Assembly (NCBI RefSeq): GCF_014647495.1
Contig: NZ_BMPH01000003.1
Coordinates: forward strand, 248,001 to 312,000
DNA from: Glutamicibacter protophormiae
GTDB taxonomy: Bacteria; Actinomycetota; Actinomycetes; Actinomycetales; Micrococcaceae
DNA length: 64,000 bases
Reading direction: 5' to 3'
The notes under the pieces: generated by a model
Database searches by the model: none
What the model saw: only the letters and a program-made list of their open reading frames with translations
What the model was told of the DNA's origin: nothing
Shown: positions 40,113-45,846 of the stretch, one piece after another
How the letters are laid out: each line of letters opens with the position of its first letter
How positions within the stretch are numbered: the stretch's first letter is position 1
Made by a program: the position numbers and the translations under genes

Positions 40113-40189
<77 letters not shown>

Positions 40190-40192
40190 AGC

Positions 40193-40240
40193 AAAATCGC
40201 CCGGCGACCTGCGTAAACAGGTTGCCGGGCGATTTTCGTT
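40193..40240 (+). terminator. Terminator after the CAT tRNA
   Basis: 19-bp stem with one wobble pair (40193-40211 with 40218-40236), 6-nt loop, then CGTTT. Serves the tRNA and perhaps the convergent integrase transcript. Confidence 0.85.
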
Positions 40241-40289: not shown

Positions 40290-41630
40290 TCATGCGCCGA
40301 AGTTTCCGCGATTCCGGAAGCGGTCCTGCAGTGAAATCACGTTATCCGGCTGCGGTACCGGTTTGGGCTCCGGCTCAGCCCAATGCGCGGACAACTTGTC
40401 CGCGACGTCCTGGTGCATCTCATCGAGCACATGCTGGTAGCGCTGCAGCATGGAGATCTGCGACCAGCCCAGGATCTCCATCACCACCCGTTGGGGAACA
40501 CCGAGCAGGAGCATGGTCGTGGCCGCCGTGTGCCGGCCGTCGTGGATGCGGCCGGGCGGCACCTTCGCCTCGGCTAGCAGCTCGCGCCACGCCGTCCAAT
40601 CCGCCTTCGAGTACAGTGGCATCCCGCCCGGCCGGCAGAAAACCAGATCCCGCTCAACCCCGTTCTGGTCCTTCCATACCGCCCACGGTTCGTGCGCGCG
40701 TATCGTTTTCCGGGCCTCAGCATGCCTCAGGAGCGCCTGACGCAGTGGACCTGGCATGGTTACGCTACGAACGCCTGCGGCGCTCTTAGGCGCGCCCGTG
40801 AAGTATCCGCCGCCCCTCCGCATCGGGCAGTGCCGGCCGAACTTCCGCCCGCACTTCGGCGCCAGCGGATCATCCGGGTTGCACCCGTGCTCCCACGGCA
40901 GCACGAACAGCTCACGTTCGATGCGGATCTTCCCGTTCTCAAAGTCAATATCCGACCAGGTAAGCCCCAGCGCTTCACCCTGGCGCGGACCCAGCATCAG
41001 ATTCAGCAGCCACCGCGCCTCATCATCCCGGCTCTTGGTCGCCGTGATCATTCGCCGCACCTCTTCGGTCGAATACACCTGCGGCTCAAACGGCTCTGGC
41101 GAGGGCGCATCCAAGACCAATATCGGGTTCTTCCCGAGGACTCCGCGCTTGACCGCCATATTCAGCGCTCGCCGGAGGATGGCGTGGAGCCCGAGGAGGC
41201 TGGTTTCGGATAGCCCAGCTTCGCGCATCGCCGCGTAGATCACTTCGAAGTCGGTGGGCGTGAGCTTGTCCAAGCGCTTGCCGGCCAGCCGGTGGGGCCG
41301 GATGTGGCTGTTGATCTTGTTGCTGTAGCCCTTGCGTGTCTGGGGGCTCTTGGCGGTGGCTGGGGCGATGTTGGCGAGCCAGTAGTCGAGCCATTCGATC
41401 AGGCGAGGCTTGAGCCCTACAGTCGATTGGCCAGCGTGGACTTCGCGCAGCGCTTCACGGAGCTTGCGGGTGCATTCCGCTTTGGTCTTGCCATAGGCCG
41501 ATTTGAGTATGGCGTGGCCGCTGGGCTTGTAGCCGGCGACGTAGTTGGCTTGCCAACGGCCGTCGGCTCGCAGCCTCGGTTCGGAGCCTTCCTGGTTGCC
41601 CCGCTTGGCGCGGGGTTCTGAGGTCGTCAT
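40290..41630 (-). CDS. int: Tyrosine-type site-specific integrase
   Basis: The 446-residue recombinase integrates and excises the phage. It has an AP2-like arm-binding start (LRADGRWQANYVAGYKPSG), a core-binding SAM-like domain at about 72-165, and a catalytic domain with R216 (GPRQGEALGL), K282, H363 and R366 (HDGRHTA), W389 in place of the usual His (LGWSQ), and Y398. An insertion at about 245-278 carries Cys250, Cys260, Cys268 and a nearby His267, which looks metal-binding. The gene ends about 100 bp from the tRNA, as in phages that use tRNA genes as attB. Confidence 0.95.
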   Translation of the reverse strand: MTTSEPRAKRGNQEGSEPRLRADGRWQANYVAGYKPSGHAILKSAYGKTKAECTRKLREALREVHAGQSTVGLKPRLIEWLDYWLANIAPATAKSPQTRKGYSNKINSHIRPHRLAGKRLDKLTPTDFEVIYAAMREAGLSETSLLGLHAILRRALNMAVKRGVLGKNPILVLDAPSPEPFEPQVYSTEEVRRMITATKSRDDEARWLLNLMLGPRQGEALGLTWSDIDFENGKIRIERELFVLPWEHGCNPDDPLAPKCGRKFGRHCPMRRGGGYFTGAPKSAAGVRSVTMPGPLRQALLRHAEARKTIRAHEPWAVWKDQNGVERDLVFCRPGGMPLYSKADWTAWRELLAEAKVPPGRIHDGRHTAATTMLLLGVPQRVVMEILGWSQISMLQRYQHVLDEMHQDVADKLSAHWAEPEPKPVPQPDNVISLQDRFRNRGNFGA

Positions 41631-41707: not shown

Positions 41708-42109
41708 TTAGGCGATGTGCTCTGAGGCTGGCCAGAGCTGCTGGATCTGGTCGCCGTCGAGTGTCTGCAGGCGGTCGATGACGACTTGCTCGGTGACGCC
41801 GAGTTCTTCGGCCATCACCCAGGGGCTGCGTGACCAGCCGGCGACGCGCTGCAGGTCTTCGAAGCTGACTAGGAAACGGGCGGTCTCCAAACAGATCTGT
41901 CGTTCGACGGATGGCGGCTGGCAACCTTGGTGGCCGTGCTTGATGTGGAAGGCCTCGTGTGCGAGGAAACATCGCCGCTCGGCCGCCGTGAGTTCTGGGT
42001 CCACCCAGATGCGACGGCCGTCTGTGGCCGCCACTAGATCTGGGTGGGGTCGATTCCAAATGATTACTACCTGGGCAAGCGTGCGCAACATGCCCCAAAC
42101 GTTCTGCAT
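41708..42109 (-). CDS. ImmA/IrrE-family metallopeptidase
   Basis: The product of about 133 residues has the zinc motif HEAFHIKHGH. A C-terminal HTH-like stretch (MAEELGVTEQVVIDRLQTL) is probably the second metal-site and helix region. ImmA-type enzymes cut phage or element repressors to trigger excision. ATG 42109 was chosen because a 28-bp palindrome lies directly upstream; starts at 42133 would place the palindrome inside the gene. TATATT within the palindrome ends 6 nt before this ATG, so the message may be leaderless. Confidence 0.85.
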   Translation of the reverse strand: MQNVWGMLRTLAQVVIIWNRPHPDLVAATDGRRIWVDPELTAAERRCFLAHEAFHIKHGHQGCQPPSVERQICLETARFLVSFEDLQRVAGWSRSPWVMAEELGVTEQVVIDRLQTLDGDQIQQLWPASEHIA

Positions 42110-42134
42110 GATTCGAATATATATTCGAATCATG
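42107..42134. promoter_or_regulatory. Perfect 28-bp palindrome at the ImmA gene start
   Basis: Each 14-bp arm reads CATGATTCGAATAT from the outside inward, and the match is perfect with no spacer. On each strand TATATT is followed 6 nt later by ATG. It can act as operator and promoter for the ImmA gene on the minus strand. Confidence 0.7.
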
Positions 42135-42181: not shown

Positions 42182-42928
42182 TTAGGACACCATTGCTTGC
42201 AGTTCATTTGCGGCGTTTGATGCGTCTAGGTCGAGTATGCCAGCGTGCTGTTCGACCGGTCGCAGTAGGTCATCCAGAAGATCCCTATCGGCTCTGTTGA
42301 GCGGAAGCATGGCTATGATTCTAGGAGCTTTTCCGACGCGTTCCACGGCATCGATTCGAGTTCGAAGGTAAGATATCGCCAATGGATTTGGGCTTAGGGC
42401 TTCGAGGGTTACACGGTGGTCTTCGCCTAGCCCAAAATCAAAAGGAATCGGCACCTCGGGAGTATCGAGGTCCCAGCGTCCGGGTAGCAGAATTCGCTCG
42501 TGAACCTCGATTTGAGCCTCAGCAAGGACATGCCTCGCGAGATCCAAAGGAGCTTGGATTGGCTTCTCGGGAAGTGTCACCATTTCGCTGAAAAGTCTAT
42601 CGGCGAGAAAGCGAGGTTCGCCGGCTATTTCCATGATTGTTCCGCCGTGGATGGCGCTAAAGTTTGACGGTCGCTTCTCTGGTATCGATAGTGCCTCGCT
42701 CCATCGGCCGGTATGTGCTTTACGTGCAAAGTACTCTATCCAGGACTGATAGGTCGATTTAGATACGCCGATACCGCGTAAAAGACGGCCGTTGATTTTA
42801 CCGCTGCGGTCCACACCACGAAATCGCAGAATCCACTGCTCGCCCACATTTAGAACGACGCCAATGTTGCGAGGTTCATGTCTCCGCAAATCAGCGGTAA
42901 TTTGGACGAGGTACCAGTCTGCGTGCAT
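42182..42928 (-). CDS. DUF3037-like protein, partner of the HipA-like kinase
   Basis: The 248-residue product begins ADWYLVQITADLRRHEPRNIGVVLNVGEQW, which resembles DUF3037 proteins (a strand, then E-x-x-N-I/V-G-V-V-L). Such genes are commonly next to HipA_2 kinase genes, as here. The rest has no recognisable enzyme motif. GGAGGATCTC precedes the ATG. It follows the kinase gene by 27 bp, so the two form one unit. Base composition is more AT-rich than the phage structural genes. Function unknown; a toxin-antitoxin or defence role is a guess from the partner. Confidence 0.65.
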   Translation of the reverse strand: MHADWYLVQITADLRRHEPRNIGVVLNVGEQWILRFRGVDRSGKINGRLLRGIGVSKSTYQSWIEYFARKAHTGRWSEALSIPEKRPSNFSAIHGGTIMEIAGEPRFLADRLFSEMVTLPEKPIQAPLDLARHVLAEAQIEVHERILLPGRWDLDTPEVPIPFDFGLGEDHRVTLEALSPNPLAISYLRTRIDAVERVGKAPRIIAMLPLNRADRDLLDDLLRPVEQHAGILDLDASNAANELQAMVS

Positions 42929-42955
42929 GAGATCCTCCTTCTGTGAGTGGTCTAG

Positions 42956-43702
42956 TCAGTCCGCGCGGGAACCTGGGATATTCTGGCCAAAGAGATCTGG
43001 GACCTCAAGGTTATATGTGTGCGCCGACAGAAACACTATATTTAAGGTTCTGTGGTGCAGGAAACGACGGTACTGATCGATATGCGCTTTGCTGGCCAGT
43101 TTACGTTGGTACGCGGCATCGCAAGCTGCATCTACCCACCGTTTTCCCTGGCTGAATATAAGGCCTGTCCACCAGCCCAAGAGTTCAGCTGATGGAGTGA
43201 CTTCTCGGTAGACCTGCGATCGATGAGTTGAGTTTTCAACTCCCCGCAAAGCATTCGGATGTCGAGGGTCCACTCCGTTGAAACACTGCTCATGATCGAT
43301 TGCCCACAACCCCACATCGGGCGTCCAGATCAGATTTGCGTCTGTACGGTCGATGTTGAGTAGCCACACGTCAAAAGCAGCTATACCTGAGTATATGTGA
43401 GGCTCCACTACTGCGGCTTCCTGCGGGTTCGGTGGCGCGGAAACTTCGCCATCGGTGCCAACAATCGCGGTTGCCCAGGCGCGGGCATTGTGCTGGACGG
43501 CAGCAAGCTCGCCGAAGGGGACGGGGATACCCATGGAGTGCGCGAGTCTTGCAGCTAGGTACTCGTGGAGAACGACTGGGTGTTCTGAATCTTCGTCTGA
43601 TTTCACGAATACTCGCGCAATGCCTTGCTGTAAGTCTTTTGAACCTAAATCGCTAGCCACTAGTTCGGATACAGCTAGCCCAGGAAGTCCGCGGAATGCC
43701 AC
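42956..43702 (-). CDS. HipA-like (HipA_2) protein kinase homologue
   Basis: The 248-residue product has the reduced kinase core of HipA-like proteins: Lys34 in ARVFVKSD, Glu47 in HEYLAARLAHSMGIPVPFGE, the catalytic loop FDVWLLNIDRTDANLIW (Asn116, Asp118, Arg119, Asn123) and a metal-type Asp136 in LWAIDHEQCF. All residues for phosphotransfer appear present. There is no DNA-binding HipB gene beside it; a DUF3037-like gene follows instead. The GTG start has GAGGGA 8 nt upstream. HipA proper phosphorylates GltX and stops growth; the target here is unknown. Confidence 0.75.
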   Translation of the reverse strand: MAFRGLPGLAVSELVASDLGSKDLQQGIARVFVKSDEDSEHPVVLHEYLAARLAHSMGIPVPFGELAAVQHNARAWATAIVGTDGEVSAPPNPQEAAVVEPHIYSGIAAFDVWLLNIDRTDANLIWTPDVGLWAIDHEQCFNGVDPRHPNALRGVENSTHRSQVYREVTPSAELLGWWTGLIFSQGKRWVDAACDAAYQRKLASKAHIDQYRRFLHHRTLNIVFLSAHTYNLEVPDLFGQNIPGSRAD

Positions 43703-43802
43703 TAGTGATCGTCCCTCGAATTAGATGCGTCCACGCCGGTTTGTTCGTCGAGCTGCTCGTGTATGTTCTTCGATTTCGACTTCGATGGTGCGGCTAAAGG
43801 AT

Positions 43803-45023
43803 TCACGGCTTTGAGTCCCCTTTGGCAGGTCCACTACTCTGCAGTTTAGCGACATTCGCCATAAGAGCCGCTAGCTCAGAAACTGCCGCAGTATTATTAG
43901 GCGGTTCTGGATTTTTGTCGTCGGCGCCTGGTTCGTTGCCGAAAACTCTTCTCGCAAATTCCATGCGCAGCTGATCTCGGGCACCCTCCTCACCGATTAG
44001 TTGTATATATGGCGTGAAGGTTTGGAGCTGGACACTGACCGTGTCACTCCAAACCGAGAGCCTACGGTGATAATTGGACTGCCTTAGAAGATATGTGCCA
44101 ATTGCGGATCCACCTGCGACTACCGCAAGTTTCCATGCCAAGGTTGGCCAATTAAACGCCTCGTCGGCAAGGATAAAAGCGTAGATTACGGCAAAAATTG
44201 CCACCGTACTCAGGACCGTAATCCCAACCCAAAAGTATGCCGTTGACTTCTCATCGTGAGAGTTATGGAAGTTTTCGAAATGCTTGATTAGAGCCTTCTT
44301 GGAGTCTTCTTCGTTTAGGACTTCTTGTTGAGCCTGAACCGATGCATAGCTCTGTTGGGCTTGATCAGCTAACGCGGCAGCATTTTCAGCAATAGTTCGG
44401 TATTTGTTGAGTTCGGCAGTTCTTTGGGTAGCTTCCTCGTTGAGCTTTTCGACTTGTTGCGCCAACTCATTCGCTCGTTGAAGGGACGATTGGAGATCGT
44501 AACCACCCTTGGCGGCTCTCGTCAGCTCATCTCGAACTTTAGAAAATTCGGCGTCTACAACTTCCTGCTGAAGCTCCCTGCTGTAAGCGAACCTCAAATT
44601 TATGGCTGACTCATTTACCCGATGCATACGCTGATGAACATCGTTGGGTCGCTCGCGGAGCTCCATATATTGACCCATATCAAGCATCATGGCGAATTCG
44701 TCCTGAACCCATCGAATGATTTCATCGCAATCTTGAAGGCGCGTCCGTTTGGGTAGATTCAAGTCGCGAACGGAACTATTTAGAATCATCTCAACCGACT
44801 GCAGAGATTTTGCATCAGCCATGTCGATAATGTAGACCATGTCACTCAAATAGGAATCAACCGCTAAGGCCACATGATCGGCAATCAGTTGTCGCATACG
44901 GTGTGATGCAGGGGAGCCCTCAGGCTTGTTGGCCCAGTCCCTGAATTGAGTTGCGATGTCTCCAAGGCTAAGACGGAGCTGACGGAAGGCCATTTCCGCA
45001 GATTTATTTACATTGGACGTCAT
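43803..45023 (-). CDS. Coiled-coil protein with two membrane helices, coupled to the repressor
   Basis: The 406-residue product has a helical N-terminal domain (1-145), a long coiled coil (about 148-245, ANELAQQVEKLNEEATQ), two transmembrane helices (about 262-285 and 295-313) and a 90-residue tail. The plan loosely recalls DUF6161-type proteins. Its ATG directly follows the repressor TAA, so it is made in the lysogen. DNA is clearly AT-richer than the flanks. A membrane role that excludes other phages is a reasonable guess, not shown. No enzyme motif was found. Confidence 0.75.
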   Translation of the reverse strand: MTSNVNKSAEMAFRQLRLSLGDIATQFRDWANKPEGSPASHRMRQLIADHVALAVDSYLSDMVYIIDMADAKSLQSVEMILNSSVRDLNLPKRTRLQDCDEIIRWVQDEFAMMLDMGQYMELRERPNDVHQRMHRVNESAINLRFAYSRELQQEVVDAEFSKVRDELTRAAKGGYDLQSSLQRANELAQQVEKLNEEATQRTAELNKYRTIAENAAALADQAQQSYASVQAQQEVLNEEDSKKALIKHFENFHNSHDEKSTAYFWVGITVLSTVAIFAVIYAFILADEAFNWPTLAWKLAVVAGGSAIGTYLLRQSNYHRRLSVWSDTVSVQLQTFTPYIQLIGEEGARDQLRMEFARRVFGNEPGADDKNPEPPNNTAAVSELAALMANVAKLQSSGPAKGDSKP

Positions 45024-45620
45024 TTAGTTCTCGTTCCTCGAGTCCGATTCCTCGTCGAGCTGTTCGCTCCTGGTTTTCACCTTCGGATGCGCTGCCAATT
45101 GCTCTATCGGCGGGGCCGGGTACTTCTCGGCTTCGGCGCCGTGGAATTCGATGATGCTGTCATCCGGCCCGGTCTTCTGTTCCTGGCCAAGGTTACTTTC
45201 AGAGGAGACACCGCGACTTTGGTGCCGAGAAATTTTCGTAGGTTCTGAGCTGGTGCGTTCTGCATTGCTGCCTGCTTCGAGGTCGACGAGGACCCGAACC
45301 ATCTCTACGACTGCTTTCCGCGATTTAGGCGAGAGGTTGTCTGCGCCTGGTGGGAGTTCGTCTGCGAGTGGCGGGCCCGGGACTGGTTGTCCCGCTGCTG
45401 TGAACGCCACAGAATCCTCAACGCCGGCAAGCCAGGCAATCGCACGAAGGGTTTGTTCGCCTGGAACAGACTTGTACGTGTTGCTCCGAATTTGGTTCAA
45501 AGTCGTGTAGGTGATTTTGAGACCAGCCTCTTGAGCCTTGAAGGCAAGTTGCCGGGCAGACGTTTGGTGTCGCTCGACCGCCATCTCTATGAGGCCCTTG
45601 AGGGAATCTGTATCGTTCAC
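45024..45620 (-). CDS. Probable phage repressor (HTH, XRE-like)
   Basis: The product of about 198 residues has an N-terminal HTH domain (KGLIEMAVERHQTSARQLAFKAQEAG and TYTTLNQIRSNTYKSVPGEQTLRAIAWLAGV), close to immunity repressors of actinophages. A Pro-rich link and a long polar, probably disordered tail follow. GTG 45620 has GGAAAG about 8 nt upstream; the GTG at 45626 is too near. It is read leftward, divergent from the XRE gene, with three related 9-bp sites between, the layout of a lysis-lysogeny switch. It lacks an S24 peptidase domain, so release may depend on the ImmA protein or the antirepressor. Confidence 0.78.
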   Translation of the reverse strand: MNDTDSLKGLIEMAVERHQTSARQLAFKAQEAGLKITYTTLNQIRSNTYKSVPGEQTLRAIAWLAGVEDSVAFTAAGQPVPGPPLADELPPGADNLSPKSRKAVVEMVRVLVDLEAGSNAERTSSEPTKISRHQSRGVSSESNLGQEQKTGPDDSIIEFHGAEAEKYPAPPIEQLAAHPKVKTRSEQLDEESDSRNEN

Positions 45621-45682
45621 AACCACGACTTTCCTAGATGAACTCTCGCTTGCTCAATTCCCTGAACTTTGCAGGTGAAAAG

Positions 45683-45771
45683 TAACAAGTTCATCATCCC
45701 AATAATTTCGCGGGTAAATCCACTTTTCGACTTGACAACTTGGTGAGTAGTGAATGATAGTTAACTTGTCA
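45683..45771. promoter_or_regulatory. Switch region: early promoter and three operator half-sites
   Basis: TTGACA (45732-45737) and GATAGT (45756-45761), 18 bp apart, form a rightward promoter. Three copies of a TGACAAGTT-like word lie at 45683-45691, 45733-45741 (over the -35) and 45763-45771 (reversed, after the -10). A protein on the last two would block the early promoter. Confidence 0.6.
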
Positions 45772-45846
45772 GATCGAAAAGTGGAAGGAATACTGGTTAT
45801 GCGTGGAACGCGTCGTCATCTCAATCTCGTTCGAAAGGAGAGCTGG

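Follow-up and report, generated by a model that had tools for sequence, protein, structure and literature searches.

A HipA-type kinase and its DUF3037-like partner in the lysogeny region of a Glutamicibacter protophormiae prophage: a predicted phage defence pair

Results and discussion

The prophage and its lysogeny genes

The window (the whole 64,000-nucleotide stretch of Glutamicibacter protophormiae DNA that was analysed) runs into a genuine prophage inserted at a tRNA-Met gene (40113-40189), which lies beside a tyrosine integrase gene (40290-41630, minus strand; PF00589, 6.5e-22). A 91-bp stretch from the tRNA 3' end, the attL region (40145-40235), recurs beyond the window at positions 85411-85500 with 90% identity; this att-like repeat gives a prophage of about 45 kb, in agreement with the IMG/VR entry for it (44,648 bp). 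The lysogeny genes form a leftward run on the minus strand, in the following order: the prophage repressor as the first gene (45024-45626; PHROG 12831, 2.5e-17), a 406-aa coiled-coil/membrane protein that begins directly after the repressor stop (43803-45023), a putative 34-codon ORF (43702-43806; VNPLAAPSKSKSKNIHEQLDEQTGVDASNSRDDH), a HipA_2-type Ser/Thr kinase (42956-43702; 248 aa, GTG start), its partner (42182-42928; 248 aa), an ImmA-type metalloprotease (41708-42133; PHROG 87, 1.4e-12, with PF06114 at its cut-off), and the integrase. An inverted repeat with 23-nt arms (45719-45785), located upstream of the repressor near the start of a rightward HTH gene, is operator-like and is likely the operator of the genetic switch.

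The kinase and partner ORFs are present at the coordinates and on the strand given by the initial annotation, which placed them between the integrase/ImmA genes and the repressor; this position holds, except that the 406-aa membrane gene intervenes before the repressor. The annotation had also described the DNA as AT-richer than the structural genes: GC is 0.49-0.54 around the pair versus about 0.6-0.65 over most of the remaining prophage. The genes are tightly packed. The 34-codon ORF fills the gap between the membrane gene and the kinase exactly (its GTG overlaps the upstream stop, and its TAG overlaps the kinase GTG), and, if translated, is possibly a coupling peptide or a third component; the 27-bp gap between kinase and partner holds, after the kinase stop, a strong Shine-Dalgarno sequence (AGGAGG) for the partner.

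The kinase

The kinase matches the HipA_2 family (PF20613) at E=2.4e-8 and 34 bits, above the Pfam cut-off of 27, and PHROG 3162 at E=1.8e-11. The initial annotation had described a HipA-type kinase with intact Lys34, Glu47, Asn116, Asp118 and Asp136, and this is confirmed: the protein carries all five as well as Asn123, and all six are conserved in the family (E47, N116 and D136 never vary in a 16-sequence alignment, in which D118 and N123 are almost as constant; K34 is nearly invariant in an alignment of 11 sequences). Its predicted structure (pLDDT 84.6) matches the HipA, HipT and CtkA kinases in the PDB by Foldseek, and sequence searches of the PDB returned no match for either the kinase or its partner. 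The kinase also matches PADLOC PDC-M66A (E=3.1e-4 for the G. protophormiae protein), a profile matched by 15 of 16 kinase homologues (best 5.5e-8).

The kinase thus shares the HipA fold with HipBA and HipBST, from which the pair differs in lacking both HipS and the HipB HTH antitoxin, and in the size of the kinase, which has 248 aa where full HipA chains of the PDB have about 400-440. No HipB or other HTH gene adjoins the G. protophormiae pair, as the initial annotation had observed, and a reading of the pair as HipBA is ruled out by the lack of HipB beside it.

The partner protein

The partner is the predicted antitoxin or regulator of the pair, and comprises an N-terminal DUF3037-like domain (aa 1-119) and a C-terminal domain predicted to be PD-(D/E)XK/DUF1828-like (aa 124-248). 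Its description as DUF3037-like stands by way of its homologues and for its N-terminal half, but not for the protein itself, which has no match to PF11236 (DUF3037) or to anything else in the libraries searched, Pfam and PADLOC included. Three of 13 partner homologues match PF11236 (best 6.3e-4), and three of 13 match PDC-M66B (best 0.0086), which leaves the G. protophormiae partner unmatched. A profile-profile comparison of the partner family with DUF3037 aligned 118 columns with p=0.0018 at an HH-suite probability of only 15%, while control comparisons with unrelated families gave p=0.77-0.81. The kinship with DUF3037 therefore looks real but distant, and confined to the N-terminal half.

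In the predicted model of the partner (pLDDT 89.3), the second of the two domains arranges its elements in a PD-(D/E)XK-like order. A fold search of a viral library gave a DUF1828 protein as a match (2.6e-5), with several nucleases as weaker ones; the viral library alone was informative, since a search of the PDB gave no match below 0.001. The C-terminal domain is accordingly predicted, from the model, to be related to DUF1828/DUF1829. An active nuclease was considered and rejected, as the aligned strands lack an (E/D)xK motif, and for the same reason we read the domain as one that probably serves in binding. A search for the DUF1829 family in related genomes found no match anywhere and is hence uninformative on the partner; a search of plasmids for the partner found no match either.

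Distribution and co-variation of the pair

Both genes are present at 15 distinct loci, where they are neighbours in every case, with the kinase preceding the partner, and the sequence divergences of the two proteins run parallel (r=0.85 over 14 loci). At seven of the 15 loci (G. protophormiae, the Gordonia phages EMsquaredA and ZiggyZoo, and loci L044, L051, L053 and L057) an ImmA gene comes next after the partner, at most 100 bp away, and in one more (L041) it lies 2.5 kb from the pair; these ImmA genes were sought with our own profiles, the Peptidase_M78 profile being too weak for this ImmA group. In L044, L051 and L053 the kinase start and the stop of a repressor-type HTH gene share 4 nt (for L044 and L051, the HTH call comes from reading the sequence rather than from a score).

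Among close relatives the distribution is patchy, as the kinase is carried by one of 18 genomes of the host genus and matched in seven of 297 genomes of the host order, three of these matches being weak fragments. Across the phylum, all 28 actinobacterial DUF3037 genes sampled (L012-L039) adjoin a HipA_2-like kinase; these genes are of a short form of about 128 aa, and chromosomal pairs occur in all seven sampled genomes of one genus. A HipA_2/DUF3037 pairing therefore need not mean defence. E. coli HipA causes persistence, and this, together with the wide occurrence of short pairs on actinobacterial chromosomes, would fit a gene of host physiology (a persistence or metabolic kinase) carried by the prophage as a lysogenic conversion gene. 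We regard this as extremely unlikely: the patchy spread of the close relatives (7/297 genomes), many of them phage-linked, is unlike that of a housekeeping function.

One pair, in Gordonia amarae (L042, 7186-8360), is degenerate in both genes: the kinase has His in place of Asp118 and Ser in place of Asn123, and from the partner the C-terminal half is missing. Such joint decay, seen in this one case, is expected if an antitoxin matters only while its toxin is active.

The repressor-ImmA slot in sister phages

Homologues of the EMsquaredA ImmA were found in 196 phage records, and both genes of the pair in only three. Comparison of sister phages, sampled for diversity rather than counted exhaustively, reveals what else can stand between ImmA and the repressor. 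Over the 5,009 bp that end where immA begins, EMsquaredA and Floral share 97.3% identity, which is lost precisely at that point: the EMsquaredA slot holds the pair and a membrane protein (with weak matches to AbiJ_NTD4 and PDC-S32), the Floral slot holds RelE/HTH genes, and homology resumes at the repressor. ZiggyZoo and CarolAnn, both Jujuvirus, share 90.3% identity across the 3,091 bp that lead to the immA start; the ZiggyZoo slot holds the pair and the CarolAnn slot genes 43/44, the repressors differ too, and homology resumes beyond the repressor. CarolAnn 43/44 have been proven to act in abortive defence and are expressed in the lysogen together with the repressor (PMC6426606). Like the ZiggyZoo pair, these Rex-like genes are two in number and sit in the same slot; their products, a membrane protein and a DUF4747-like protein, are unrelated to the pair and include no kinase. 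The slot of Sidious contains genes annotated as RexA/RexB, and those of Easley, Angelique and ThankyouJordi a methyltransferase (the Easley copy matches PDC-M30A at 3.1e-44).

Because its contents differ between phages and include proven or annotated defence genes, the repressor-ImmA slot, judged from these alignments, behaves as a swappable cargo site in which defence genes are often found. The pair repeatedly occupies this slot in actinophages; the prophage setting and the evidence of cassette swapping are new here, and a literature search of partial coverage found no description of a HipA/DUF3037 pair in actinophage immunity regions. Across the ImmA-to-repressor slots of Gordonia phages (L061-L068, L081-L086), many uncharacterised genes were seen beside known defence genes, which makes these slots promising ground for finding new systems of prophage defence.

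The same comparisons bear on whether the kinase belongs to the lysogeny switch itself, where it would tune induction by phosphorylating the repressor, ImmA or a host silencer, with or without a role in defence. The direct succession of the pair by ImmA in seven of 15 loci and the overlap of the kinase with a repressor-type gene in three would agree with such a role, and prophage kinases that govern both lysogeny and defence are known, for example the kinase-kinase-phosphatase module KKP of Pf prophages (PMC11341870). In common with the pair as proposed below, KKP is carried by a prophage and is a toxin-antitoxin with a Ser/Thr kinase that is active in defence; it differs in that a phosphatase, not a DUF3037 protein, neutralises the kinase, and it also controls Pf phage production (PMC11341870). 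The phage records speak against this role: with ImmA homologues in 196 records and the pair in three, the ImmA/repressor switch works without the pair; the pair is cleanly exchanged for unrelated genes between phages with 90-97% identical flanks; and ZiggyZoo and EMsquaredA share their ImmA at 94% but their pairs at only 63-67%. We consider a part in the switch unlikely, and the rarity of the pair and the clean swaps disfavour, in particular, an obligatory one.

Proposed function

The initial annotation held that pairs of this type have no assigned role, a statement since overtaken by papers of 2025-2026 (PMC13092281, PMC12548924); the type corresponds to PADLOC PDC-M66 and to DS-6 (HipAD). 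In E. coli, DS-6/HipAD consists of a HipA-like kinase and a DUF3037-DUF1829 protein (DS-6B) and is a validated phage defence, which a catalytic mutation of DS-6A abolishes (PMC13092281). The G. protophormiae pair resembles it in having two genes, for a HipA-like kinase and a DUF3037-type protein, without HipB, as well as in its conserved catalytic core, in the second domain on the partner, and in the PDC-M66A match of the kinase. It differs in being very distant in sequence, in its position in the immunity region of an actinophage prophage, and in its partner, whose C-terminal domain is predicted to be PD-(D/E)XK/DUF1828-like and leaves DUF1829 unmatched by sequence. In Retron-Sda1, a kinase and DUF3037 pair forms a standalone defence module in which the kinase defends and the partner prevents toxicity: deletion of HipA abolishes defence, and deletion of DUF3037 is toxic (PMC12548924). 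Unlike that module, the pair described here is accompanied by neither a retron RT nor an ncRNA, comes from another host group, and is borne by a temperate phage.

Membership in HipAD, in diverged form, is the most likely assignment, and the pair probably operates in a similar way: the kinase itself matches PDC-M66A, and on the partner side matches are seen only among homologues. Starting from what is established here (the family of the kinase, the distant kinship of the partner, the constant pairing, and the cargo-slot position in the lysogeny region), we hypothesize that the pair is a diverged, prophage-borne HipA/DUF3037 (HipAD, PDC-M66) toxin-antitoxin that acts in abortive defence against other phages, a prediction that we consider likely. 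By analogy with the relatives, the partner would be the antitoxin and the kinase the effector. In the lysogen, the repressor promoter would drive a transcript through the repressor, the membrane protein, the kinase and the partner, and the partner would bind and silence the kinase. On infection by another phage, a phage product may disturb the partner or the complex, and the freed kinase would then phosphorylate an essential target, such that growth of the cell and of the invader stops. The pair probably protects its host from rival viruses, since it is related to HipAD and sits in a slot that holds defence genes in related phages. Of the readings considered, an exclusion or abortive-infection module active in the lysogen, as the initial annotation had suggested, is the best supported, in view of the PDC-M66A kinase, the validated relatives, and the defence genes of the slot.

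The constant pairing, which suggests toxin-antitoxin logic, and the Gordonia amarae locus (L042), with its kinase devoid of Asp118/Asn123 and its partner of the C-terminal half, would also fit a toxin-antitoxin that serves only for addiction or stabilisation, penalising cells that lose the prophage, and has no antiviral effect. That reading seems improbable to us, as integrated prophages have little need of addiction, the slots of sister phages hold proven or annotated defence genes, and the characterised relatives of the pair confer phage defence (PMC13092281, PMC12548924). Defence and lysogeny control might also be joined in a dual-purpose switch, in which the partner-held kinase would both abort other phages and phosphorylate the repressor or ImmA, coupling the sensing of superinfection to induction; we judge such a switch very unlikely.

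If abortive defence is indeed the function of the pair, temperate actinophages would be seen to carry a newly recognised HipAD-type defence within their immunity regions, and the repressor-to-ImmA slot would be marked as a swappable defence site. The function is testable in Gordonia terrae 3612, for which there already are near-identical sister phages that differ in having or lacking such a pair.

Neighbouring features

A 28-bp palindrome (CATGATTCGAATATATATTCGAATCATG; 42107-42134) spans the immA start, and is the sole perfect palindrome with arms of at least 10 in the 64-kb window. The palindrome is SOS-box-like and fits the pattern TCGAA-N6-TTCGA, of which the host genome has 18 copies versus five of a reversed control; one such site lies about 225 bp upstream of a lexA match. 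It is not conserved at the other loci of the pair. On this pattern, it could be a candidate LexA (SOS) box that renders ImmA inducible by DNA damage.

A second exclusion function is possible for the 406-aa membrane protein upstream of the pair. In its C-terminal part it is similar to proteins of the Gordonia phages Malachai, Dmitri, Lucky10 and Floral, and the Floral relative sits to the left of the integrases.
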